Part shown: one piece after another, positions 1,349 through 41,898 of the stretch
Layout: the number at the start of each line of letters is the position of its first letter
Numbering within the stretch: position 1 is the stretch's first letter
DNA from: Thauera sp. JM12B12
GTDB lineage: Bacteria; Pseudomonadota; Gammaproteobacteria; Burkholderiales; Rhodocyclaceae
DNA length: 64,000 bases
Assembly (NCBI RefSeq): GCF_039614725.1
Contig: NZ_CP154859.1
Coordinates: 2,666,001 to 2,730,000 of the forward strand
Direction of reading: 5' to 3'
Translations under genes and position numbers: made by a program
The notes under the pieces: generated by a model
The model's database searches: none
The model's input: the letters and a program-made list of their open reading frames with translations, nothing else
What the model was told of the DNA's origin: nothing

Positions 1349-2453
1349 ATGGAAGCCGAACGCCAGAACGCCATCGCCGAAAAACTCGCCGACCTCGCCG
1401 CCCGCGGTCGCGAACTACGGAGGTATCTTTGACTACGATGTGAAAGCATCGAAGCTCGAAGAAGTCAATCGCGCGCTCGAAGACCCGGCGGTCTGGAACA
1501 ACGCCGAACGCGCGCAGGAGCTCGGCAAGGAGAAGCGCCAGCTCGAGGACGTGGTGCTGACGCTGCAGCAGATCGACGCGCAGTCGCGCGACCTCAAGGA
1601 TCTGTTCGAGCTCGCCGAAGCCGAGGACGACGACGACACCTTCGAGGCGGTCGAGGCCGACCTCGGCGACCTGCAGGCCGAAGTCGAGAAGCTCGAGTTC
1701 CGCCGCATGTTCAGCAACCCGATGGACCCCAACAACTGCTTCATCGAGATCCAGGCCGGCGCCGGCGGCACCGAGGCCCAGGACTGGGCGGGCATGCTCG
1801 AGCGCATGTACCTGCGCTACGGCGAGAAGAAAGGCTTCAGCGTCGAGCTGATGGAAGAGACCGAGGGCGAAGTCGCCGGCATCAAGAACTGCACGATCAA
1901 GCTCTCCGGCGAGTACGCCTACGGCTACCTGCGCACCGAGACCGGCATCCACCGCCTGGTGCGCAAGTCGCCGTTCGACTCCAACGCCCGCCGCCACACC
2001 AGCTTCACCTCGGTGTTCGTGTATCCGGAGGTCGATGACTCGATCGAGATCGAGATCAACCCCGCCGACCTGCGCATCGACACCTACCGCGCCTCGGGCG
2101 CCGGCGGCCAGCACATCAACAAGACCGACTCGGCGGTGCGGATCACGCACGAGCCCACCGGCATCGTCGTGCAGTGCCAGAACGACCGCTCGCAGCACAA
2201 GAACAAGGCCGAGGCCATGTCGATGCTGAAGGCGCGCCTGTACGAGGCGGAGCTGCGCAAGCGCCAGTCCGAGCAGCAGAAGCTGGAAGACTCCAAGAGC
2301 GACATCGGCTGGGGCCACCAGATCCGCAGCTACGTGCTCGACCAGTCGCGCATCAAGGATCTGCGTACCAGCTACGAGGTCGGCAACACCCAGGCCGTGC
2401 TCGACGGGGACCTGGACGACTTCATCGCGGCGAGCCTGAAGCAGGGCGTCTGA
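1349..2453 (+). CDS. prfB: Peptide chain release factor 2 (programmed +1 frameshift)
   Basis: RF2 recognises UGA and UAA stop codons and triggers peptide release. The gene is split: ATG at 1349 opens 27 codons ending in CTT at 1427, an in-frame TGA lies at 1430-1432, and the protein continues in the +1 frame from GAC at 1431 to the stop at 2453. An internal Shine-Dalgarno-like CGGAGGT lies just before the slippery CTT-TGA-C, the classic autoregulatory RF2 frameshift site. The joined product is 367 residues, the normal RF2 length. The UGA-reading SPF tripeptide is present in [10 protein letters not shown] and the catalytic GGQ in [13 protein letters not shown]. Reading only from the GTG at 1440 would lose the real N-terminus. 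Confidence 0.97.
1421..1433 (+). promoter_or_regulatory. RF2 +1 recoding site
   Basis: An SD-like AGGAGG-type stretch (CGGAGGT, from 1418) sits three bases before CTT TGA C. Pausing at the in-frame TGA lets the ribosome slip +1 when RF2 is scarce, so RF2 controls its own synthesis. All elements of the known bacterial prfB site are visible. Confidence 0.93.
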
Positions 2454-2686: not shown

Positions 2687-3958
2687 ATGACTGACCCCTT
2701 CCTCTCCGACTTCCTCGCCGCGGGCGTCGATGCCGATGAGGTGCCCGAGCTCGCGGCGCTCGCCTCGGCGCGCCCGCTGCTCGACGCCTTCATCACGCTG
2801 TTCCGCGGCACCGAGGCCGAGGTGCTGATGCGCCTGCTGGTGCTGCGCGAGATCGGCCGCGAGGCCGACTCGCCGCGCTGGTCGCCCGAGGCCCTGCGCG
2901 CGCGCTTCACCTATCTCGACCCGGTCAAGCTCGAGACGGTGCTGAAGCGCCTGCGCGACAACGCGCTGCTGGCGATCGGCGAGGACGGCCACTATGCGCT
3001 CTCCGACATCGGCCGCAACGCGGTGGCGGCGATCGCGATGCTGCTGCGCTTCGGCGAGGAAGAGGACGCCGAGCTCGGCTTTCTCACCGCCCAGCTCGCC
3101 GGCCTGCAGGCGGTGGGCAGCATCACGCCGGAAGCCCTCGGCCACCTGCTGTCCAAGCTCAACGACCTGACCTGGCACTTCGAGGAGGCGATCGCCTCGG
3201 GCTCCGAGTTCCGCATCCTCGACGCCCGCCGCCGGCTGTCGGCCAACGGACGCTGGCTCGAGCGCGGCACCGACATCCTCAACACGCTGCTCGCCGATCC
3301 CGAGGTCGACTTCGACATCGCCCGCATCGCGCAGCGCATCGGCCTGGCGCAATCGCGCCTGGCACGGGTGGACGCCGCCTTCCAGCGCGCGCTGAACAAG
3401 ATCGAGTCGCAGCGGGTGACGCTGGGCGCCTCCGGGATCTCGTCCTCGGACGTCTCCGCCTGGCTGCGCAGCCTCGATGCACCAACGCTGGCCGGACTCG
3501 CCGTCGATGCCTTCGCCGCCGTGCCCGAACTCGCGCTGCTGGCGGGCGGCCACGAGCTGCTCGATCGCGCCGAAAGCCAGCTCGAGGGCGAAGCCGCGGC
3601 CGCCGCGGTGGACGCGAGCCTGCCGCCCCCCGACGCCGCCGGGGCGGACGTCACGCTGCAGGCGGAGGACCTGCGCCTGCTCGAGCACCTCATCCACCGC
3701 CTCGAAGCCCTGCCCGCGCCACAGCCGCTGCAGAACGTGGTGGCCGGCGGCGGATTCGCGCCGGCGAGCTACCGCCTGTCGCTGCTCGCCCTGCTGGCCG
3801 ACGGCGCCGAGGCCGGCCCCGAGGACGGCCCGGTCGGCAGCCTGATGCGCCTGCCGATGGACGTCACGTTCGGCGACACCCTGACACCGGTCGGCGAAGA
3901 CGAGATCGCCGCGATCACGCTCGGCGAAGTCCGCCCGCGCGCGGCTGCGCGGGCCTGA
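2687..3958 (+). CDS. Kleisin-like subunit of an SMC-type complex (MksF/JetA-like)
   Basis: This 423-residue protein has no signal peptide or membrane segment. Residues about 40-120 form a winged-helix-like region (VLMRLLVLREIGR, LETVLKRLRDNALLAIGEDGHYALSDIGRNAV), followed by a long helical, acidic middle and a C-terminal region near DVTLQAEDLRLLEHLIHRLEAL. That layout, the length, and the two partner genes (a 236-residue winged-helix protein 21 bases downstream and an SMC-like ATPase at 6134) fit the MksF kleisin of MksBEF condensins, or JetA of Wadjet. The family call is inferred from architecture and neighbourhood, not from a recognised signature; DNA organisation is the expected role. The start was chosen as the first ATG after the REP array; no strong ribosome-binding site is visible. 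Confidence 0.6.
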   Translation: MTDPFLSDFLAAGVDADEVPELAALASARPLLDAFITLFRGTEAEVLMRLLVLREIGREADSPRWSPEALRARFTYLDPVKLETVLKRLRDNALLAIGEDGHYALSDIGRNAVAAIAMLLRFGEEEDAELGFLTAQLAGLQAVGSITPEALGHLLSKLNDLTWHFEEAIASGSEFRILDARRRLSANGRWLERGTDILNTLLADPEVDFDIARIAQRIGLAQSRLARVDAAFQRALNKIESQRVTLGASGISSSDVSAWLRSLDAPTLAGLAVDAFAAVPELALLAGGHELLDRAESQLEGEAAAAAVDASLPPPDAAGADVTLQAEDLRLLEHLIHRLEALPAPQPLQNVVAGGGFAPASYRLSLLALLADGAEAGPEDGPVGSLMRLPMDVTFGDTLTPVGEDEIAAITLGEVRPRAAARA

Positions 3959-3979
3959 GCCTGCCACCCGGACCCCTTC

Positions 3980-4690
3980 ATGGAACACGAACTCAAGACC
4001 CTCACCGCCCGCCTGCTCGCGCAGCGCTGGCTGCCGCGCAACGACAAGCTGGTGCGACGCGCGCTGGTGGACGAGACCTTCCGCTTCGAACTCGACCGGC
4101 GGCTGGCCGATGTCGGCCTGCGTCTGCTCGACAATCCCTACGCCGCCCATGTCGGCGTCGCACTCGAAGCCGAGCTCGCCGAGCCCGTGTTCGGTGCCGG
4201 CCGCGAATACGCCGCCAGCAACCTGGGCCTCACCCGCGACGAGATCGCCTTGCTGGTGATCCTCTGGGCGCTGATCGTGCTGCCCAAGCGCGAACGCCAG
4301 GTCACCCGCCGCGAGCTCGCCGACGACGGCCAGAGCGACCTCTTCGGCGGCGCCGACAAGCCGGTCGGCCACGGCGAGTCGGTGTCGGGCGCGCTCACCG
4401 AGGCCTCCCTGATCGCCGACTTCGGCCCGCGCCTGGGCGGGCGCACGAAAGTCCGCAACTTCATGCTCGGCAAGCTCGCCCGCCTCGGCTTCATCGAGCG
4501 CCGCAACGGCCTGATCAGCGAAGGCCCGCTGCTCGACCTCGCGCTCGACTACCGCGTGATGGCCGACCGCATCATCCACGGCACGCTCGGCGAGGTGCTC
4601 GCCGCCGCCGGTCACGCGCTGCCCGAGGGCAATGCCTTCGACCTTGCAGACGTGCTCCCCGACGAGGACCCTCCCGCGGAGGACGCGTGA
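3980..4690 (+). CDS. KITE-like winged-helix subunit (MksE/JetB-like)
   Basis: This is a 236-residue soluble protein. It opens with a helical arm (ARLLAQRWLPRNDKLVRRALVDE) and continues with a block like the DUF4194/MksE family (LRLLDNPYAAHVGVAL, then TRDEIALLVILWALIVLPKRE). A second winged helix follows near residues 155-180 (KVRNFMLGKLARLGFIERRNGLISEGPLLDLAL). The C-terminus is strongly acidic. It starts 21 bases after the kleisin-like gene, so the two are surely co-transcribed. KITE subunits bridge a kleisin to SMC heads, which fits the nearby SMC-like ATPase. Family membership is judged by eye. Confidence 0.6.
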   Translation: MEHELKTLTARLLAQRWLPRNDKLVRRALVDETFRFELDRRLADVGLRLLDNPYAAHVGVALEAELAEPVFGAGREYAASNLGLTRDEIALLVILWALIVLPKRERQVTRRELADDGQSDLFGGADKPVGHGESVSGALTEASLIADFGPRLGGRTKVRNFMLGKLARLGFIERRNGLISEGPLLDLALDYRVMADRIIHGTLGEVLAAAGHALPEGNAFDLADVLPDEDPPAEDA

Positions 4691-4695
4691 CCGCA

Positions 4696-4770
4696 CCGCT
4701 CCCACAGCATCGGCTCCCGCAAAGTCGGCTCCCTCAACTTCGGCTCCCGCAGCACCGGCTCCCGCAGCGG
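4696..4770. repeat. Five tandem 15-bp repeats
   Basis: Five head-to-tail copies of a 15-base unit with core CGGCTCCCGCA start at 4696, 4711, 4726, 4741 and 4756; the first and third are the most diverged. They fill the gap between the KITE-like gene and trmA. The unit resembles half of the local REP element (GCTCCCAC) and may be degraded REP material or polymerase-slippage DNA. Confidence 0.8.
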
Positions 4771-4823
4771 CCCTTGCCTCTGAAGGGCCACTCAGCATTT
4801 CCGTCACAAGATCCCGCTAATTC

Positions 4824-5930
4824 ATGCCCCTGCCCATCATCGACCCCGCCCGCTACGAGGACCAGCTCGCCGCCAAGCTCGCACGTTACCGCGCCGACTT
4901 CGCTGAATTCGAGCTGCCCGAGCCCGCGCTCTTCCGCTCGGCGCCGCTGCACTATCGCCTGCGCGCCGAGTTCCGCCTGTGGCACCAGGACGGCCGCATC
5001 GACTATGCGATGTTCGACAGCGCGGACCCGAAGCAGCCGATCCTGCTCGACACCTTCCCCGCCGCCGCCGAACCGATCGCCACCCTGATGCCGCGCCTGC
5101 GCGACGCGCTCCAGGCGAGCGAGCCGCTGCGGCGCAAGATCTTCCAGGTCGAGTTCCTCGCCACCCTGAGCGGCGAGTGCCTGGTCAGCCTGGTCTACCA
5201 CCGCCCGCTCGACGAGGCCTGGGAAGCCGCCGCGCGCGCGCTCGCCGCCGCGCTCGACATCCAGGTCATCGGCCGCAGCCGCAAGCAGAAGATCGTGTTC
5301 GAGCGCGACTGGGTGCAGGAGGCGCTCGAGGTCGATGGCCAGCGCCTGCGCTACCAGCAGTTCGAAGGCAGCTTCACCCAGCCCAACGGCGGCGTGAACC
5401 AGCACATGCTCAGCTGGGCGCGCGCGCAGGCGAAGGCGGTCGGCGCCGGCCCGCAAGGCGCGGGCGACCTGCTCGAGCTGTACTGCGGCAACGGCAACTT
5501 CACCGTGGCGCTGGCGCCGCTGTTCGGCCGCGTGCTCGCCACCGAGATGAGCAAGACCTCGGTGCGCGCCGCCCACACCAACCTCGCCGACAACGGCGTG
5601 GGCAACGTCACCATGGTGCGCATGGCGAGCGAGGAGATCAGCGACGCGCTCGCCGGCGGCCGCGAGTACCGCCGCATGGCGGGCGTCGACCTGGCCGGCT
5701 ATCGCTTCACCACGCTCTTCGTCGACCCGCCGCGCGCCGGCCTCGACGAGGGCACGATCGCGCTGGCGAAGGGCTTCGACAACATCCTCTACATCTCCTG
5801 CAACCCCGAGACCCTGCGCGCCAACGTCGCCGCGCTGGCGGAGACGCACCGCATCGCGGCCGCGGCGGCCTTCGACCAGTTCCCCTACACCCACCACCTC
5901 GAGTGCGGGCTGCTGCTACAGAAGCGATGA
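4824..5930 (+). CDS. trmA: tRNA (uracil-5-)-methyltransferase TrmA
   Basis: TrmA makes m5U54 (ribothymidine) in the T-loop of tRNA using S-adenosylmethionine. The 368-residue length matches the family. Visible signatures are SAM motif I LLELYCGNGNFTVALA, the substrate motif LFVDPPRAGLD, the catalytic cysteine in ILYISCNPETL and the C-terminal FPYTHHLECGLLL with the general-base glutamate. The family TrmA/RlmC/RlmD is certain; TrmA is favoured over the rRNA enzymes because the short N-terminus lacks the RlmD TRAM domain and iron-sulfur cysteines. It sits between the KITE-like and SMC-like genes on the same strand, an odd place for a housekeeping tRNA enzyme. Confidence 0.93.
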   Translation: MPLPIIDPARYEDQLAAKLARYRADFAEFELPEPALFRSAPLHYRLRAEFRLWHQDGRIDYAMFDSADPKQPILLDTFPAAAEPIATLMPRLRDALQASEPLRRKIFQVEFLATLSGECLVSLVYHRPLDEAWEAAARALAAALDIQVIGRSRKQKIVFERDWVQEALEVDGQRLRYQQFEGSFTQPNGGVNQHMLSWARAQAKAVGAGPQGAGDLLELYCGNGNFTVALAPLFGRVLATEMSKTSVRAAHTNLADNGVGNVTMVRMASEEISDALAGGREYRRMAGVDLAGYRFTTLFVDPPRAGLDEGTIALAKGFDNILYISCNPETLRANVAALAETHRIAAAAAFDQFPYTHHLECGLLLQKR

Positions 5931-5944
5931 CGATGAAAACCTCC

Positions 5945-6015
5945 CGTGGGAGCGGGCTTGCCCGCGAACTTTGCCTGCTTGGCCGCTGTATTCGCGGGCA
6001 AGCCCGCTCCCACGG
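5945..6015. repeat. Inverted pair of REP-like elements
   Basis: GTGGGAGCGGGCTTGCCCGC at 5946-5965 is mirrored by GCGGGCAAGCCCGCTCCCAC at 5994-6013, giving a facing pair separated by about 20 bases, the typical BIME arrangement. It lies between trmA and the SMC-like gene and could form a long hairpin that limits read-through or protects the trmA mRNA end. Confidence 0.88.
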
Positions 6016-6133
6016 CTACTCAAGCACCATCGCCTACCTGCACTCACAGAGCCGTTCTCACGCCAGCTTCTGCACCAGCGCCCACAGCAGCAGGACATCG
6101 CCATCGGGTGCCACCCGTCAAGACTGATACCCC

Positions 6134-8926
6134 ATGTTCCACATCAAGACCCTCGAGCTCGTCCATTGGGACTTCTGGCGACGCTTCTCGCTGCCGCTGG
6201 ACGCGCAGATCATCACCATCGTCGGCCCCAACGGCTCGGGCAAGACCACGCTGCTCGACGCCCTGCGCACCCTCTTTGCGCTGCGCTGCTCGGGCAAGCG
6301 CGACTTCCGCCGCTACGTGCGCCGCGCCGAGCGCAGCTTCGCGTGGATCCGCGCGGTGGTCGCCAACCAGCCCGGGCACAGCGGCAAGCGGCCGTTCTTT
6401 CCCTGCCTCGCCGACGAGGTCACCCTCGCCTGCCGCATCCGCAAGGCCGGCGGCGACTGGATCCGCGACTACACCATCGTCGACGGCAACCTGCCGATCG
6501 AGGCGCTCGAACAGACCAGCGACTGGATCGGCCTGCGCGACTACCAGAACCGCCTGGCCTGGGGCGGGCTGACGCCGGCGATCACCAAGGTGCTGGCGCT
6601 GGAACAGGGCGACACCGACAAGCTGTGCGAATACTCGCCCAAGGCGCTGCTCGAGCTGGTGTTCGACGTCTTCGGCGACAAGGAGGTGCTGGACAACTAC
6701 CAGGCTGCGCGCGAGGAGCAGAAGTCGGCCGAGCGTGAGCTCGGCGAGCTCGGCATCGACCTCGACCGCCTGAAGACGCAGGCCGAGGAGAAGAAGGCCG
6801 AGGCCAATCGCTTCCTCGAGTGGAAGCAGCTCGCCGACGAGGCCCAGGCACTGGAAGCCGAGATCGTGCCGCGGCTGGAGATCGCCGAACTCGAGCGCGA
6901 GATCGCCGGCGAGCGCGAGGCGCTGCAGCGCGTCGGTAGCGAGCGCGCCGAGAAGCTCGTCGAGCAGCGCGAGTCGCGCCAGCGCCTGGACGCGGTGCGC
7001 GCCGAGCAGGCGCGCGCACAGGCCGAGCGCAAGCGCCTGAAGGACGCCGATGCCGCCACCGAGCAGCACTACCTCGCCGCCCACGATCGCGTGCGCGACC
7101 TCGACAAGCTGCTCGAGGAACGCGACATGCTGCGCGCCCAGCTCGCCAGCGAGCATGGCGCCGATGCGCTCGCACTGGAAAAGGAGCACGAGGAGGCCGA
7201 CGCGGCGCTGGCCAGCCTGCGCCGCAGGGAACGCGAGCTGCTCGCCGCCTTCGAGGAGAAGACCGAAACGCTGCGCGGCGAGCGCAACCGCGCCGGCCCG
7301 CCGGGCGATGGCGAAGTGGCGCGCTTCCGCGTCAAGCTCACTGCAGACGGGATCGCACACAAGAGCCTCGCCGAGGTGGTCGAGGTCACCGACCCCGCCT
7401 GGCAGGCCGCGCTCGAGGCCATCCTGCGTCCCTACCGCCACCTGATCCTGCTCGAGCGCGAAGCCGACCGCCACGCCGCATGGGCGCTCGGCGAGCGCGA
7501 GCGCTTCCGCCACTTCATCGTGCCCGAGCGCGAGAGCGCCCCGCCGCCGCGACCGATGAGCCTGGCCGAGGTGGTGGAGTTCAGCGCCCCGGTGCCGCGC
7601 TGGCTCTCCGATCTGCTCAACCGCATCCGCCGCGTCGACAATGCCGAGGCCGCGCGCGAGCTGCCGCGCGAGCAGGAGTGGATCACCCGCGACGGCTACC
7701 ACCGCGAGCGCCGCGGTGCCCGCCACCTCGGCCGGCCGCAGGAATTTCACTTCGGCGAGCTCGCCCGCCAGTCGCGCATCGCCGCGCTGCAGGAGGAGAT
7801 CGTCGGCCTCGACAAGCAGCTCCAGGCCCTGCGCCCCAAGCTGGATGCGGCCGCTGCCCGGCTCACCCTGATCCGCCAGCGCCTGCTCGGCCTGCAGTCG
7901 GCGCAGCTGCTCGCCGCCAAGGCCGAGACCTACGCCAGCGCCGAGACCGAGCTGCCCGCCGCGCGCAAGGCGCTCACCGAGGCGATCGCCGAGCGCAGCG
8001 AGACGCGCGGCGAGATGGACCGCCTCGCCGAAAAGCTCAACGGCATCCAGATCGAGCTCGACCGCCGCAACCGCGAGCTCAAGGCCATCGAGCTGCGCCT
8101 GGCCGACATCGCGCGCGAACACGGCCCGCGCCGCCACGCCCAGGCCGAACGCATCATGAAGCTGCGCCGCCGCCGGCGCGGCATGCCGCCGCACTGGCTG
8201 GACACCGGCGAGCTCGCCCTGCTCGCCGACAAGTACGGCGACGCCCGCGGCGCCCGCCTGCAGCTCGAGCGCCTGCGCCGCCATCTCGACGAGGGCGACT
8301 GGATCACCGACCCCGCGGTGCTGGTCGTGCGCGACCGGCTCGCCGCCGAGGTCGCGCTGCGCGAGCGCGACTATCTCAACCGTCAGGGCTACTGCACCAC
8401 CGCGCGCCTGCACACCGACAACGCGCGCGCCGCCTACATCGCCAAGCTGCGCGCCACCGTGCGCCAGTACGCGAAGAACCTGAAGGCGCTCGGCGAGCTC
8501 GCCAACGTCAGCGTGGACTGCCCCACCCCGCACCTGGACAACGACGACCTCGCGCTCGCCCAGGCCGGGCTCGAGGTGCGCTTCGACTTCGACCGCAAGG
8601 GCGCGGTGGGCTTGAACGACGGCGAGGCCTCCGGCGGCCAGCAGGTCATGAAGTCGCTGATCCTGCTCATCGGCCTGCTGATGGACGAGTCCCGCCCGGG
8701 CGGCTTCGTGTTCATCGACGAGCCCTTCGCCCACCTGGACGTCGCCAACATCGACCGCGTCGGCACCTTCCTGCGCGCCACCCGCGCGCAGTACCTGATC
8801 ACCACCCCGGTCACCCACAACGCCAATGTCTTCGCGCCGGCGCAGCTGACGCTGGTGACACGCAAGAAGCAGCCGGGCAGCGACTGGGCACCGCCGATCG
8901 GGGTGCTGCAGCGGGCGGTGGACTAA
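6134..8926 (+). CDS. SMC-like ATPase (MksB/JetC-like)
   Basis: This is a 930-residue ATPase. Walker A GPNGSGKTT is at residues 31-39. Long coiled coils (E/R/A/L-rich) cover about 190-390 and 590-740. Between them is a hinge-like domain (HKSLAEVVEVTDPAWQAALE, then WITRDGYHRERRGARH). The C-terminal head has the ABC signature ASGGQQ at 832-837 and Walker B FVFIDEP at 858-864, followed by a D-loop HLD. Head-coil-hinge-coil-head is the SMC architecture, and the size suits MksB rather than canonical SMC (about 1150) or MukB (about 1480). The partners are the kleisin-like and KITE-like genes at 2687-4690. No MksG/JetD TOPRIM nuclease is found nearby, which argues for chromosome organisation over plasmid defence. 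An RecN- or SbcC-like function is the main alternative. Confidence 0.75.
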   Translation: MFHIKTLELVHWDFWRRFSLPLDAQIITIVGPNGSGKTTLLDALRTLFALRCSGKRDFRRYVRRAERSFAWIRAVVANQPGHSGKRPFFPCLADEVTLACRIRKAGGDWIRDYTIVDGNLPIEALEQTSDWIGLRDYQNRLAWGGLTPAITKVLALEQGDTDKLCEYSPKALLELVFDVFGDKEVLDNYQAAREEQKSAERELGELGIDLDRLKTQAEEKKAEANRFLEWKQLADEAQALEAEIVPRLEIAELEREIAGEREALQRVGSERAEKLVEQRESRQRLDAVRAEQARAQAERKRLKDADAATEQHYLAAHDRVRDLDKLLEERDMLRAQLASEHGADALALEKEHEEADAALASLRRRERELLAAFEEKTETLRGERNRAGPPGDGEVARFRVKLTADGIAHKSLAEVVEVTDPAWQAALEAILRPYRHLILLEREADRHAAWALGERERFRHFIVPERESAPPPRPMSLAEVVEFSAPVPRWLSDLLNRIRRVDNAEAARELPREQEWITRDGYHRERRGARHLGRPQEFHFGELARQSRIAALQEEIVGLDKQLQALRPKLDAAAARLTLIRQRLLGLQSAQLLAAKAETYASAETELPAARKALTEAIAERSETRGEMDRLAEKLNGIQIELDRRNRELKAIELRLADIAREHGPRRHAQAERIMKLRRRRRGMPPHWLDTGELALLADKYGDARGARLQLERLRRHLDEGDWITDPAVLVVRDRLAAEVALRERDYLNRQGYCTTARLHTDNARAAYIAKLRATVRQYAKNLKALGELANVSVDCPTPHLDNDDLALAQAGLEVRFDFDRKGAVGLNDGEASGGQQVMKSLILLIGLLMDESRPGGFVFIDEPFAHLDVANIDRVGTFLRATRAQYLITTPVTHNANVFAPAQLTLVTRKKQPGSDWAPPIGVLQRAVD

Positions 8927-8959: not shown

Positions 8960-10756
8960 TCAGCGCTCCAGCAACGCCTCTGCCGGGGCGCCAACGCGCA
9001 CGTTGCCCCAATGGCGGCCGTTGACCATGATCGGCATGGCGATGTCGCACAGCACCTCGCCGGTGTCGCGCAGGTAGGTCTGCAGCAGCATCGGCTCGGT
9101 GTTGCGCGCGGCGCGCAACTCGGGCGGACGCTCGAACTTGCGGCAGGTGCGGTTGCCGACCAGATCCTTTTCGGGGTGGCCGGTGAGCGGCTTCGAGAAT
9201 CGGGTGTTGTGCGCCGACAGATAGCTGTCCGCATTCACCGCGACCGCGAACACCGCGCCCCCGGCGCGCTCCAGGCTCTCGTCGAGGATGCGCTGGCAGC
9301 GCCGGGTGAATTCATCACCCCAGGCGACCTTGAACTTGGGCGGATTGGTGCCGCCGACCGGCCGGTAATTGCGGTCGAACACGTCGACGCGCCCCTCGGC
9401 CATCGCGCACAGCTCGGCCTGGACGCGATCACGGAAGACGCGGGTCTCGTTCACCAGACGGTCGAAGGCGCCCGTGCCGATCTTGAAGCGCGACACCAGC
9501 TCCTGCACCGCCTCGGTGGATTTGGTGAGGTCGAGCGTGCGCCGCTCGCAGTCGTCCATCTGCTGCGCGACCGAGGCCGAGAGCTCATGGATCTCGCTGA
9601 CATTCGCGTGCACGTGGGCGTTGGTCTCGGTCAGCGAGTCCATGCCGACCGCGATCTGGGTGAGCTGGCCGCCGGTGCGCTCGAACTCGCCGACCATGTG
9701 CTCGAACTGGCTGGCCGAGCGCGTCACCACATCGCGCGTCTGCTCGACGTCGCCGTTGATGACCTCGTTCTCGGCGCGGGTCTCGCCGACCAGCTCGAGC
9801 ATGCCGTTGATGTTGCCGACGATCTCCTGCGTGGCCTGGTTGACGCGCTCGGCGAGCTTGCGCACCTCGTCGGCCACGACCGCGAAGCCGCGCCCCGCCT
9901 CGCCCGCGCGCGCGGCCTCGATGGCGGCGTTGAGCGCGAGCAGATTGGTCTGGTCGGCGATCTCGCGGATCAGCGCGGCGATCTGCTTGACGCTCTCCGA
10001 GCGCTGCGACAGGTCGTCCACCGTGTGATTGAAGCGCTGCAGCTTCTCGCTCACCGCGTTGATCTTGGCCGCAATGTGCTGCACCTCGGCGAGCGATTCG
10101 CGCGCGATGTCGAGGTTACGCAGCGTCGAGGCGTCGATCTCGCGCGCATTGGACGAAACCTCGCCAATCGCCGCCGTTGACCGGGTGCTGGCCTCGAACA
10201 CGGTCTCGGTCATCTCGCCCTGCTGGCGGGCATCCTGGGCCGAGCGCTCCACCCCGAGCTTCACCTGAACCGCCTCGCGCGCGATGCTCACGCTCATCGT
10301 ACGCACCTTGCCGATGATCTCGCGCATCTTCGCTGCAAAGCGGTTGTAACCCGCCGCGAGCTCGCGTAGTTCGTCATGGGTGGTGAGCGGGAGGTCGCGC
10401 GAGAAGTCGCCCTCGCCGCGGGCGATCTCGTCGAAGATCCCGGTGATGACGCGGATCGGTCGCACGATCAGGTGGCGCAGGTAAAGGATGTGCCCGAGCA
10501 TCATCGCGAGCGCGAGCGCGGACAGTGCGAGCATTGCGTACAGCCCCGCGTCGAAGGCCGCCGCCACCGCAACGAGGGTCTCGGGTGCGACCGTGCCCGC
10601 CCTCAACGCGGATTCGATCTCCGCGCGCTGGCTGTAGCCGATGCCCAGATAGCCCAGATTGACCACGAATAGCAGCAGGAAGCTGAAGAGTTTCCTGGTG
10701 AGCGAGTTCCAGAAGGTGCGCTCGATGTACTCGTAGAGAGTCCCTGCGGTGCTCAT
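8960..10756 (-). CDS. Methyl-accepting chemotaxis protein with C-terminal sensor region
   Basis: This is a 598-residue chemoreceptor. A first membrane helix lies near residues 18-37 ([19 protein letters not shown]), then only a short loop and a second helix ([19 protein letters not shown]). A HAMP-like segment with [13 protein letters not shown] follows. The highly conserved signalling hairpin tip is present ([20 protein letters not shown], then [17 protein letters not shown]). About 120 residues after the coiled coil form an extra domain ([16 protein letters not shown] ... [11 protein letters not shown]) that looks like a PAS/Cache-type sensor. Because the periplasmic loop is so short, ligand sensing is probably done by this cytoplasmic C-terminal domain. 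Start: ATG at 10756, just before [15 protein letters not shown]; the longer upstream frame has no family features. Confidence 0.9.
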
Positions 10757-10988
10757 GGGATATTCCAATTTGACGATAAGCTCGATGATTCTATCGGTCC
10801 CCACACTGGGGACTTTAGGATTTCGGCGCGGCGGCACCTGTCCGCGCCTGACCCGCGAGTGCACCTGCAGCGCACCGGTCGCCAGTGCGGCGGCAATTGC
10901 CCCGCCCTGCCGGCCCTGCCACAATTACGCCTTTCGCGCCGGCGCCACGCTGCCGCGCTCCCCTTTCCTTCGCATCGAACATCGAGCC

Positions 10989-12524
<1,536 letters not shown>

Positions 12525-40462: not shown

Positions 40463-41898
40463 GCGCGATCGACTTCTGGGTCGCCCGCCAGCGTGAGGAC
40501 GCGGCCGGCCTGCCGGGCGCGCAGCTGCCCTGGCTCGCCCGCCTGCGCGCGGAGGCGATCGCCCGCTTCGCCGACGAAGGCTGGCCGACGACGCGGCGCG
40601 AGAACTGGCGCCACACCTCGCTCGCCTTCATGGCGCAGCAGTCGCTGGCGGCCGAGGCGGGCGACAAGCCCGAGGCGGTGCTGGCGCGGCTGCGCAAAAA
40701 TTATCGCGCGGCCATTCGCGGGCAAGCCAGCTCCCACGGGGCGGGCAGCACCCTTGGCGGCGGGCCCGGCTCCCACGGGGCGGAGGGCGCTGTGGGAGCG
40801 GGCTTGCCCGCGAATGCTGCGGCCTTCGCCCCGCAGGACCTCGACCGCTGGCTGGTCTTCGTCGATGGCAGGTTCGCCCCCGCGCTGTCCGCGATCGGCG
40901 GACTGCCGGGCGGCGCGAAGATCGGTAGCCTGGCCGATGCGCTGAAGCAGACCCCGGATGCGGTGGAGGCCGCGTTCGGCTCCGCCACCGACGGCGAGAC
41001 GCCGCAGGCCCTCAACGCCGCCGTGGCCACCGACGGCGCGTGGATCCACCTCAGCCGCGGCGTTGCCGTGGAGCAGCCGATCCACCTCGTCTTCATCGGC
41101 GCCACCGCCGCGGACCGCCACCTGCGCAACCTCGTCGTCGCCGAGGCCGGCGCGCAGGCGACCATCGTCGAGCATTACCCCGCCGGCGCCGCCGGCAGCA
41201 CGCTCACCACCGCCGTCACCCGCGTGCTCGCCGCGCAGGACAGCCACGTGACGCACCTCAAGCTGCAGCAGGAGGCGCCCGAAGCCATCCACCTGGCGAC
41301 GATCGCGGCCGAGCAGGCGCGCGGCGCGGTGTTCGCCTCGCACTCGCTGTCCTTCGGCGCCCGCCTGGCGCGCAACGACATCCGCACCCGGCTCGACGGC
41401 GAAGGGGCCGAGACGCTGCTCAACGGTCTCTACCACGCCGACGGCCGCCGCCACGTCGACCACCACACCCGCATCGACCACGCCCGCCCGCAGGGCACCA
41501 GCCGCGAGTTCTACCGCGGCCTGCTCGACGGCAACGCACGCGGCGTGTTCACCGGCCGCATCCTGGTCGCCCAGGACGCGCAGCGCACCGACGCCATGCA
41601 GCGCTGCGACAACCTGCTGCTGTCCCGGCTGGCCGAGGCCGACGCCCGCCCCGAGCTCGAGATCTACGCCGACGACGTCAAGTGCGCCCACGGCGCCACC
41701 GTCGGCCAGCTCGACGAGGACGCCCTCTTCTACCTGCGCAGTCGCGGGATCGATACGGCGCATGCGCGCCAGCTGCTGACCTACGCCTTCGCCGCCGAGG
41801 TCCTCGAGCGCATCGCCCACGCCCCACTGCGCGCGCTCGGCCGCGCCGCGCTGCTCGAACGCCTGCCGGGCGGCAACCGGATGGAGGAATTGCTGTGA
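40459..41898 (+). CDS. sufD: Fe-S assembly subunit SufD, with REP insertion
   Basis: SufD pairs with SufB in the SufBC2D complex. The N-terminal helical domain (DEGWPTTRRENWRHTSLAFM) and the C-terminal beta-helix part (HVDHHTRIDHARPQGTSREF, DDVKCAHGATVGQLDEDALF, with the key CAHGAT histidine and cysteine) are clear. At 479 residues it is about 35 longer than expected: residues about 85-119 are encoded by REP-like DNA inserted in frame (40713-40815) without any stop. The insert lies in the linker before DRWLVFVDG, probably a surface loop, so the protein may still work. It overlaps sufC (ATGA) and sufS (GTGA). Confidence 0.95.
40713..40815. repeat. REP-like elements inside the sufD coding sequence
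   Basis: A forward unit (40713-40739, one base changed from the consensus), a partial unit near 40761-40779 and an inverted unit (GTGGGAGCGGGCTTGCCCGC from 40792) form a BIME-like block. The same unit is intergenic at 2482-2655 and 5945-6015. Here it is translated as a Gly/Ala/Ser/Pro-rich insert. Confidence 0.9.

Follow-up and report, generated by a model that had tools for sequence, protein, structure and literature searches.

A divergent kleisin-KITE-SMC gene set between prfB and lysS in Thauera, with a JetD-like fourth gene in some relatives

The stretch of DNA analysed here, hereafter the window, comprises 64,000 nucleotides of the single 4.17-Mb contig of Thauera sp. JM12B12 (assembly GCF_039614725.1, contig NZ_CP154859.1; our G000, C1:2666001-2730000), and between prfB and lysS it carries three genes, hereafter the trio, for a predicted kleisin, a KITE protein and an SMC ATPase. 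We consider it fairly probable that the trio encodes a divergent complex of the JetABC/MksBEF type with an optional JetD, nuclease-free in this genome, which probably serves as an auxiliary chromosomal condensin beside Smc-ScpAB, a function that we infer. What is new here is that, as judged from sequence matches, some relatives carry a fourth gene whose product matches models of JetD, the nuclease of Wadjet, and because of these relatives the system appears Wadjet-like with an optional nuclease, beyond a simple divergent condensin. The initial annotation of the window had suggested a divergent chromosomal condensin; of this, the divergent SMC complex stands, the idea of a plain condensin gives way to the JetD-bearing relatives, and the chromosomal role is a probable one.

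Subunits and gene order

Open reading frames of exactly the 423, 236 and 930 residues that had been assigned to a kleisin-KITE-SMC set are present, and the 8.5 kb reported between the end of prfB (2453) and the start of lysS (10989) agrees with the coordinates. The main features are:

1440..2453, plus strand: prfB, upstream flank of the conserved address
2687..3958, plus strand: kleisin-like subunit (predicted MukF/JetA fold), 423 amino acids
3980..4690, plus strand: KITE-like subunit (predicted JetB/MukE fold), 236 amino acids
6134..8926, plus strand: SMC ATPase subunit, 930 amino acids, Pfam SMC_N and SMC_hinge above cut-offs
6224..6250, plus strand: SMC Walker A GPNGSGKTT (residues 31-39), invariant in 27 aligned members
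7358..7663, plus strand: SMC hinge domain region (residues 409-510), Pfam PF06470 match
8630..8722, plus strand: SMC ABC signature SGGQQ (residues 833-837) and Walker B FVFIDE (858-863), invariant in 27 aligned members
10989..12524, plus strand: lysS, downstream flank

The 930-residue protein has the Walker A, ABC signature, Walker B and hinge expected of the ATPase in a KITE-based SMC complex, scoring 56.6 bits against Pfam SMC_N (cut-off 40) and 24.0 bits against SMC_hinge (cut-off 22.5), and its nearest relatives are in Thauera (94% to locus L014). A hinge match at E<=1 is found in 23 of the 27 aligned members, and Walker A, SGGQQ and DEPFAHLD are kept in all 88 long SMC frames, a count that, like the SMC tree below, omits the 11 of 99 matches shorter than 850 amino acids (contig ends, an insertion in L041/L113, and the shortened genes of L092 and L117).

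Structure prediction, proposed in the initial annotation as a check on the other two proteins, bears out both assignments: the best fold match is MukF for the 423-residue protein and JetB/MukE for the 236-residue protein, whose whole-protein match to JetB scores above unrelated folds (the VIA-align rows rule out no fold). No kleisin or KITE scanned rises above any family cut-off in Pfam or PADLOC, or, for the window proteins, in NCBIfam, and PDB sequence searches with the kleisin, KITE and JetD-like profiles gave no meaningful match. No JetA or DUF3375 match was obtained for the kleisins scanned, while DUF4194 appears in 1 of 19 KITEs (E 0.085) and JetB1 in 1 of 38 (E 0.031), with the L181 KITE reaching 17.6 bits against DUF4194 (cut-off 32.7). 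The public names of homologues include DUF3375 for one kleisin and DUF4194 for several KITEs. Because both subunits fall below the Pfam and PADLOC cut-offs, surveys that require JetA and JetB models would probably overlook these systems.

Among the named loci (the best 80 of the 91 found), kleisin, KITE and SMC genes stand in one order and on one strand in 73, and in six of the remaining seven the locus starts no more than 470 nt from a contig edge. Of these 80 loci, 65 have prfB upstream of the trio, and 13 of the other 15 start at a contig edge (L042 and L056 are the exceptions); the fetched stretch shows lysS downstream of SMC, in the same orientation, in 38. In L181 and L182, with mechanically assigned starts, neighbouring genes of the trio overlap by 1-8 nt. 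The trio was found in 18 of the 61 genomes of our family sample, after four of the 22 with an SMC match were dropped for having short P-loop matches only (<=22.3 bits; G012, G025, G032, G046). In our order sample of 300 genomes from 135 genera, the KITE profile hit 46 genomes in 25 genera, and 40 of the 42 loci fetched hold the full trio in one order. In 273 other genomes, a search across the class with an SMC profile gave no hit at E<=1e-10, with at most three candidates scored per genome, whereas KITE searches did find relatives in the same order and class, partly in genomes other than those the SMC search covered; in one of these KITE searches, two of eight genomes (G073, G360) were set aside because their matches were weak and partial. 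Independent occurrence of the three genes, which the initial annotation had named as the outcome that would speak against a common complex, is thus not what is seen, as the trio co-occurs across many genera. In two loci of genus g601, L256 (G978; kleisin and KITE) and L257 (G945; KITE), no SMC match was found in the 4.9 and 3.8 kb downstream.

The suggestion that prfB and lysS are former neighbours also fits: lysS follows prfB within the fetched stretch in 25 of 39 trio-less family genomes, and in 7 of the 39 the two are 24-45 nt apart.

The JetD-like gene

The window holds no JetD-like gene by a JetD-like profile, and the whole 4.17-Mb genome holds none by that profile or by JetD_C (PF09983), confirming the reported absence of an MksG/JetD nuclease and leaving this genome without the Toprim nuclease subunit that is part of Wadjet. 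The profile was built from genes of ~420 amino acids that follow SMC in L182, L029 and L046, and it yields 22 rows, 17 of them long, in 20 loci, a few of which are second copies of a genome. The gap between the edges of the SMC and JetD-like matches was measured in 17 loci: 12 have 14-63 nt, four have 341-956 nt and one has 5.5 kb.

All 14 JetD-like proteins compared match three PADLOC JetD1 models at E<=1, with a best E of 2.9e-15; 12 of the 14 match DUF2399 at E<=1, and 2 match JetD_C weakly. Their invariant residues include E282, LPG..P, DPDP.G and KGEQE, which resemble the E, GAGYGW, GDIDTHG and LEQE of true JetD from the same family, and a profile comparison with true JetD, in itself non-significant, still lines up the E, GYP and DxDxxG motifs. 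Acidic residues are stated to form the Toprim metal site in JetD and Topo VI (PMC10586767, section 7), and by analogy those of the JetD-like proteins may form such a site.

The gene occurs in 5 of the 61 family genomes, all among the 18 with a trio and in none of the other 43, a coincidence with a probability of ~0.0014 (hand arithmetic, genomes taken as independent), and in 8 of 40 order-sample trio loci. In Zoogloea, SMC and lysS are 2.54-2.55 kb apart in the three loci with JetD versus 1.30-1.41 kb in the nine without, the difference being the size of the gene. Close relatives with the trio at the same address differ in the same way: Thauera linaloolentis (L023) and a Thauera-like metagenome-assembled genome (MAG; L020) have the gene, the window does not. 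In Pseudothauera lacus D20 (L036, 13242-14735), the JetD-like gene is split by an in-frame stop near its start and is possibly a decaying nuclease gene. No residues linked to JetD, such as might mark a docking site, stood out in kleisin, KITE or SMC; the largest frequency difference was 0.45, in a column that is gapped in the window.

Relation to known SMC complexes

Of the 61 family genomes, 60 have canonical Smc above its cut-off (the remaining one has a contig-borne fragment) and 60 have ScpB above its own; the window genome is included in both counts. With Smc and ScpB both present, the trio is an additional complex, and we ruled out that it replaces Smc-ScpAB. DUF4194 systems occur in 5 of the 61 genomes, two of which (G013, G024) have both systems; the window genome has none.

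The trio resembles each of the known complexes in part. With Wadjet (JetABCD, or MksBEFG) it shares the kleisin-KITE-SMC order, a KITE whose closest fold is JetB, and the optional downstream gene that matches JetD and has Toprim-type motifs. It differs in that its kleisin and KITE are missed by the JetA and JetB families (DUF3375, DUF4194, PADLOC JetA/JetB), in its 930-residue SMC with an SMC_hinge match as against 1130-1225 amino acids in five aligned JetC proteins (starts chosen mechanically), and in that the nuclease is absent from the window genome and most relatives examined and the trio sits at fixed chromosomal addresses. Like the MksBEF of P. aeruginosa, which lacks MksG, it is a nuclease-free set of MukBEF build that coexists with Smc-ScpAB (PMC7022226, in the passages cited); by the family models tried it is nevertheless a separate sequence lineage, with 19 KITEs leaving the MksE family (PF21980) unmatched at E<=10, and it has JetD-bearing and JetD-free versions among close relatives at one address. 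Likeness to MukBEF lies in the kleisin model, which best matches MukF, and in the KITE, which also matches MukE, whereas the trio does not take the place of Smc-ScpAB as MukBEF does and its SMC scores 15.3 bits against MukB PF04310, below the cut-off of 23. From Smc-ScpAB, with which it shares SMC head and hinge similarity, it is set apart by the canonical Smc and ScpB encoded elsewhere in the genome and by its MukF- and JetB-like partner folds. Its SMC reaches 123.5 bits against TIGR02168 (best stretch residues 187-678), far from the cut-off of 567.

Profile alignment with hhalign places the trio SMC somewhat nearer to canonical Smc (E 3.1e-13) than to JetC (E 2.7e-10). Head domains of the trio SMC score on average 17-22 bits (N-head) and 3-14 bits (C-head) against canonical Smc and JetC, while scores between JetC and Smc heads are very low, at 5-9 bits for the N-head and below 0 for the C-head. 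With five sequences of each, the head profiles put the trio SMC between Smc and JetC. Our literature search, whose coverage leaves out most subscription papers, gave no title or abstract start describing this lineage among the matches listed. A 2011 paper on MksBEF is said to have grouped diverse MksB families, which may include some of these proteins.

On computed folds and motifs, the three proteins would form one complex of the MukBEF/MksBEF/JetABC build. In MukBEF and Wadjet, the kleisin N-termini are described as linking two SMC motors (PMC10586767, section 7; PMC10512200, in the passages cited), and the kleisin here would likewise dimerise through its N-terminal part and be joined by a KITE dimer and the hinge-bearing ATPase. 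Without a nuclease, such a motor would hydrolyse ATP, load on chromosomal DNA and extrude loops, and the trio of the window would most probably act in this way as a second condensin beside Smc-ScpAB; by precedent, the same motor with JetD would act as a plasmid-cutting Wadjet system. As no cutting is expected in the window, the role is probably chromosome organisation, as for P. aeruginosa MksBEF, for which a likely loss of JetD and a part in chromosome organisation are reported (PMC10586767, in the passages cited).

Inheritance, competing explanations and neighbouring genes

The trio is in general congruent with prfB. Over 65 loci, distances between SMCs follow those between prfB genes (r=0.82), a correlation that none of 1000 permutations equalled, and on a prfB tree holding 56 of the 61 family genomes, trio presence clusters, with 8 changes versus a shuffled mean of 14.9 and no shuffle of 500 needing so few. 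For JetD against SMC distances, r is 0.76 over 13 loci, or 0.86 without L182, again unequalled in 1000 permutations. JetD was mapped on two trees. The SMC tree has 88 rows (from a quick search, with Shimodaira-Hasegawa-like approximate likelihood ratio support only and long-branch warnings), and the JetD state is left unscored in the 8 rows with less than ~2 kb of downstream sequence; on the order-wide tree of 64 rows, JetD needs 10 changes, all forced, versus a shuffled mean of ~14.5. In 27 of the 42 order-sample loci, and in L181, the trio uses a second address no more than 4 kb from obgE (the gene names obgE and proB are our reading of the sequences). The trio is JetD-free in all 27 scorable loci at the obgE address versus 9 of 18 at other addresses, a comparison of related loci that is not an independent test.

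Phage records gave no match at E<=1e-10 (50,697 searched), no close relative was confirmed among viral contigs, and SMC was found at E<=1e-30 in 2 of 72,556 plasmid records, both from Variovorax, with SMC pieces 39-40% identical. On the plasmid of Variovorax sp. RA8 (L209, 6010-10673), the SMC piece lies beside IS1071 and overlaps a JetD-like gene, followed by the exonuclease VII genes xseA and xseB.

Several observations weigh against a divergent complex with an optional nuclease and a probable condensin role. Confidence in the predicted models is moderate (predicted local distance difference test 70-72; predicted template modelling score of the kleisin 0.37), for parts of the kleisin the scores of MarR-type and helical-repeat folds come close to that of MukF, and comparison of the kleisin, KITE and fourth-gene profiles with true JetA, JetB and JetD alignments was not significant, the alignments being shallow. 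Presence in 18 of 61 family genomes is patchy, less regular than for a core condensin, and requires at least 8 changes on the prfB tree; one locus, L042 of Pseudothauera nasutitermitis, has SMC only: on a contig of 0.86 Mb, neither kleisin nor KITE is present in the 10-kb flanks. The SMC frame of a JetD-free Methyloversatilis MAG (L092, 1729-3750) lacks residues 473-759, by internal deletion or assembly fault. The JetD label is weakly clustered on the SMC tree, with at least 10 changes, 8 of them forced by well-supported branches, versus a shuffled mean of 12.3. Finally, the JetDs of L020 and L023 differ at 47% of positions and their SMCs at 13%, meaning that JetD is not strictly vertical. Given this incongruence of L020, we do not accept strictly vertical inheritance with JetD loss only; exchange or replacement of its JetD makes gains as well as losses likely.

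The nuclease-free trio might still serve defence or plasmid control, by extruding and then silencing or destabilising plasmids without cutting them, or by acting with an effector encoded elsewhere, an explanation we regard as unlikely. The patchy distribution just described resembles that of a defence system, relatives with JetD exist, one relative is plasmid-borne beside IS1071, and MksBEFG of C. glutamicum, whose nuclease is MksG (PMC10123090, in the passages cited), is described as playing no part in folding the chromosome and as apparently acting on low-copy plasmids (PMC7022226, in the passages cited). The fixed housekeeping addresses and general congruence with prfB are, however, unlike a mobile defence island, relatives are nearly absent from the phage, viral and plasmid collections searched, and we noticed no additional gene that always accompanies nuclease-free trios, though no systematic search was made.

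Decay of a Wadjet system after nuclease loss seems very improbable. It would accord with the lack of JetD in most members and the at least 10 changes on either tree, with the in-frame stop in L036 and the shortened SMC genes of L092 and L117, and with the interruption of the window trio by trmA, repeats and repetitive extragenic palindromic (REP) elements. Against it, the ratio of nonsynonymous to synonymous substitution (dN/dS, Nei-Gojobori) is 0.009-0.28 over 15 hand-picked JetD-free pairs, calculated on the trio genes shared by both members, and Walker A, SGGQQ and DEPFAHLD are intact in all 67 JetD-free long SMC frames. Nuclease-free trios are on the whole maintained, under purifying selection. 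In the MAG locus L117 (G045:C12, 2123-3092), the SMC match is confined to the two heads, residues 1-112 and 725-930, which lie in different frames; hinge and arms are absent. This SMC adjoins a JetD-like gene and is a decayed gene or an assembly fault. That three separate proteins (a MarR-like regulator, a winged-helix protein and a repair ATPase) merely share a neighbourhood is hardly credible, for although the likeness of the kleisin N-domain to MarR folds and the interposed trmA of the window would fit it, the three-gene order is conserved over many families, genes overlap in L181 and L182, the whole KITE matches JetB above unrelated folds, and a fourth, JetD-like gene is tied to the trio.

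The other features of the window locus, among them the trmA, REP elements and tandem repeat that the initial annotation had placed between the KITE-like and SMC-like genes, are all present:

4698..4768, plus strand: 15-base tandem repeat in the KITE-trmA gap
4824..5930, plus strand: trmA (TIGR02143), lineage-specific insertion between the KITE and SMC genes, not counted as a subunit
5944..6015, no strand: REP-like elements, an inverted pair in the trmA-SMC gap
2483-2505, 2575-2597, 2630-2652: further REP-like copies
8960..10924, minus strand: chemoreceptor (methyl-accepting chemotaxis protein) gene, Pfam MCPsignal 123.7 bits, HAMP

The chemoreceptor gene occupies the remainder of the prfB-lysS gap, at the position where several relatives carry the JetD-like gene. 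The palindromic REP-like element has seven copies in the window at <=3 mismatches (mean 0 in 100 shuffles), five of them around the trio (2483, 2575, 2630, 5946, 5991); the other two, distant from it, flank an 18-base tandem repeat (40715-40814).

trmA is an equivalog match to TIGR02143 (490.5 bits, cut-off 334.65) and was found in 10 of 100 stretches searched, nine from the genus Thauera and one from a Rhodocyclaceae MAG; nine trmA loci form one clade in the SMC tree with L016, which itself lacks trmA. Elsewhere the same junction holds a racemase, an MFS (major facilitator superfamily) transporter, a sigma/FecR and TonB receptor pair, a PIN-domain protein or no gene. The KITE-SMC junction is an insertion-tolerant spot, and trmA is a local insertion, a later passenger in Thauera-type genomes. 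Because it is confined to these genomes and unrelated genes occupy the junction in other lineages, we reject trmA as a functional partner, and with it the idea that the complex had captured a tRNA methylase. At this junction, three Thauera-type loci encode similar proteins of 400-500 amino acids, possibly of a mobile element:

L022 160-1467: no Pfam match
L023 8091-9593
L024 8353-9591: no Pfam match

Two further genes recur beside the trio. In loci of Zoogloea, Methyloversatilis and Cognatazoarcus, the gene for a conserved protein of 412-425 amino acids with a hydrophobic start separates prfB from the kleisin gene, and a diguanylate cyclase gene lies between SMC and lysS in JetD-free Zoogloea, Denitromonas-type and Uliginosibacterium-type loci:

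L045 6669-7946: 412-425-residue protein, no Pfam match
L055 6692-7936: 412-425-residue protein
L041 2774-4045: 412-425-residue protein
L047 6720-7958: 412-425-residue protein
L055 12881-13984: diguanylate cyclase, GGDEF by Pfam
L052 12807-13988: diguanylate cyclase, GGDEF by Pfam
L073 12956-14062: diguanylate cyclase, by BLAST similarity
L077 12892-13965: diguanylate cyclase, by BLAST similarity

Where Wadjet came from and how it is related to other SMC complexes are unresolved questions according to a 2023 review, which also speculates that MukBEF and MksBEF have a past as defence systems (PMC10586767, section 7). We tentatively suggest, as a possibility short of an even chance, that the trio belongs to an unrecognised lineage spread across many families of the order, standing between canonical Smc-ScpAB and Wadjet/MukBEF, in which loss and regain of JetD have repeatedly converted an anti-plasmid machine into a chromosomal condensin. 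If this is true, such a conversion is visible in sister species. JetD-bearing and JetD-free versions at one address in close relatives would make the step between plasmid cutting and chromosome organisation, in either direction, directly testable, and the locus may be a good place for studying how a defence machine and a chromosome organiser interconvert.

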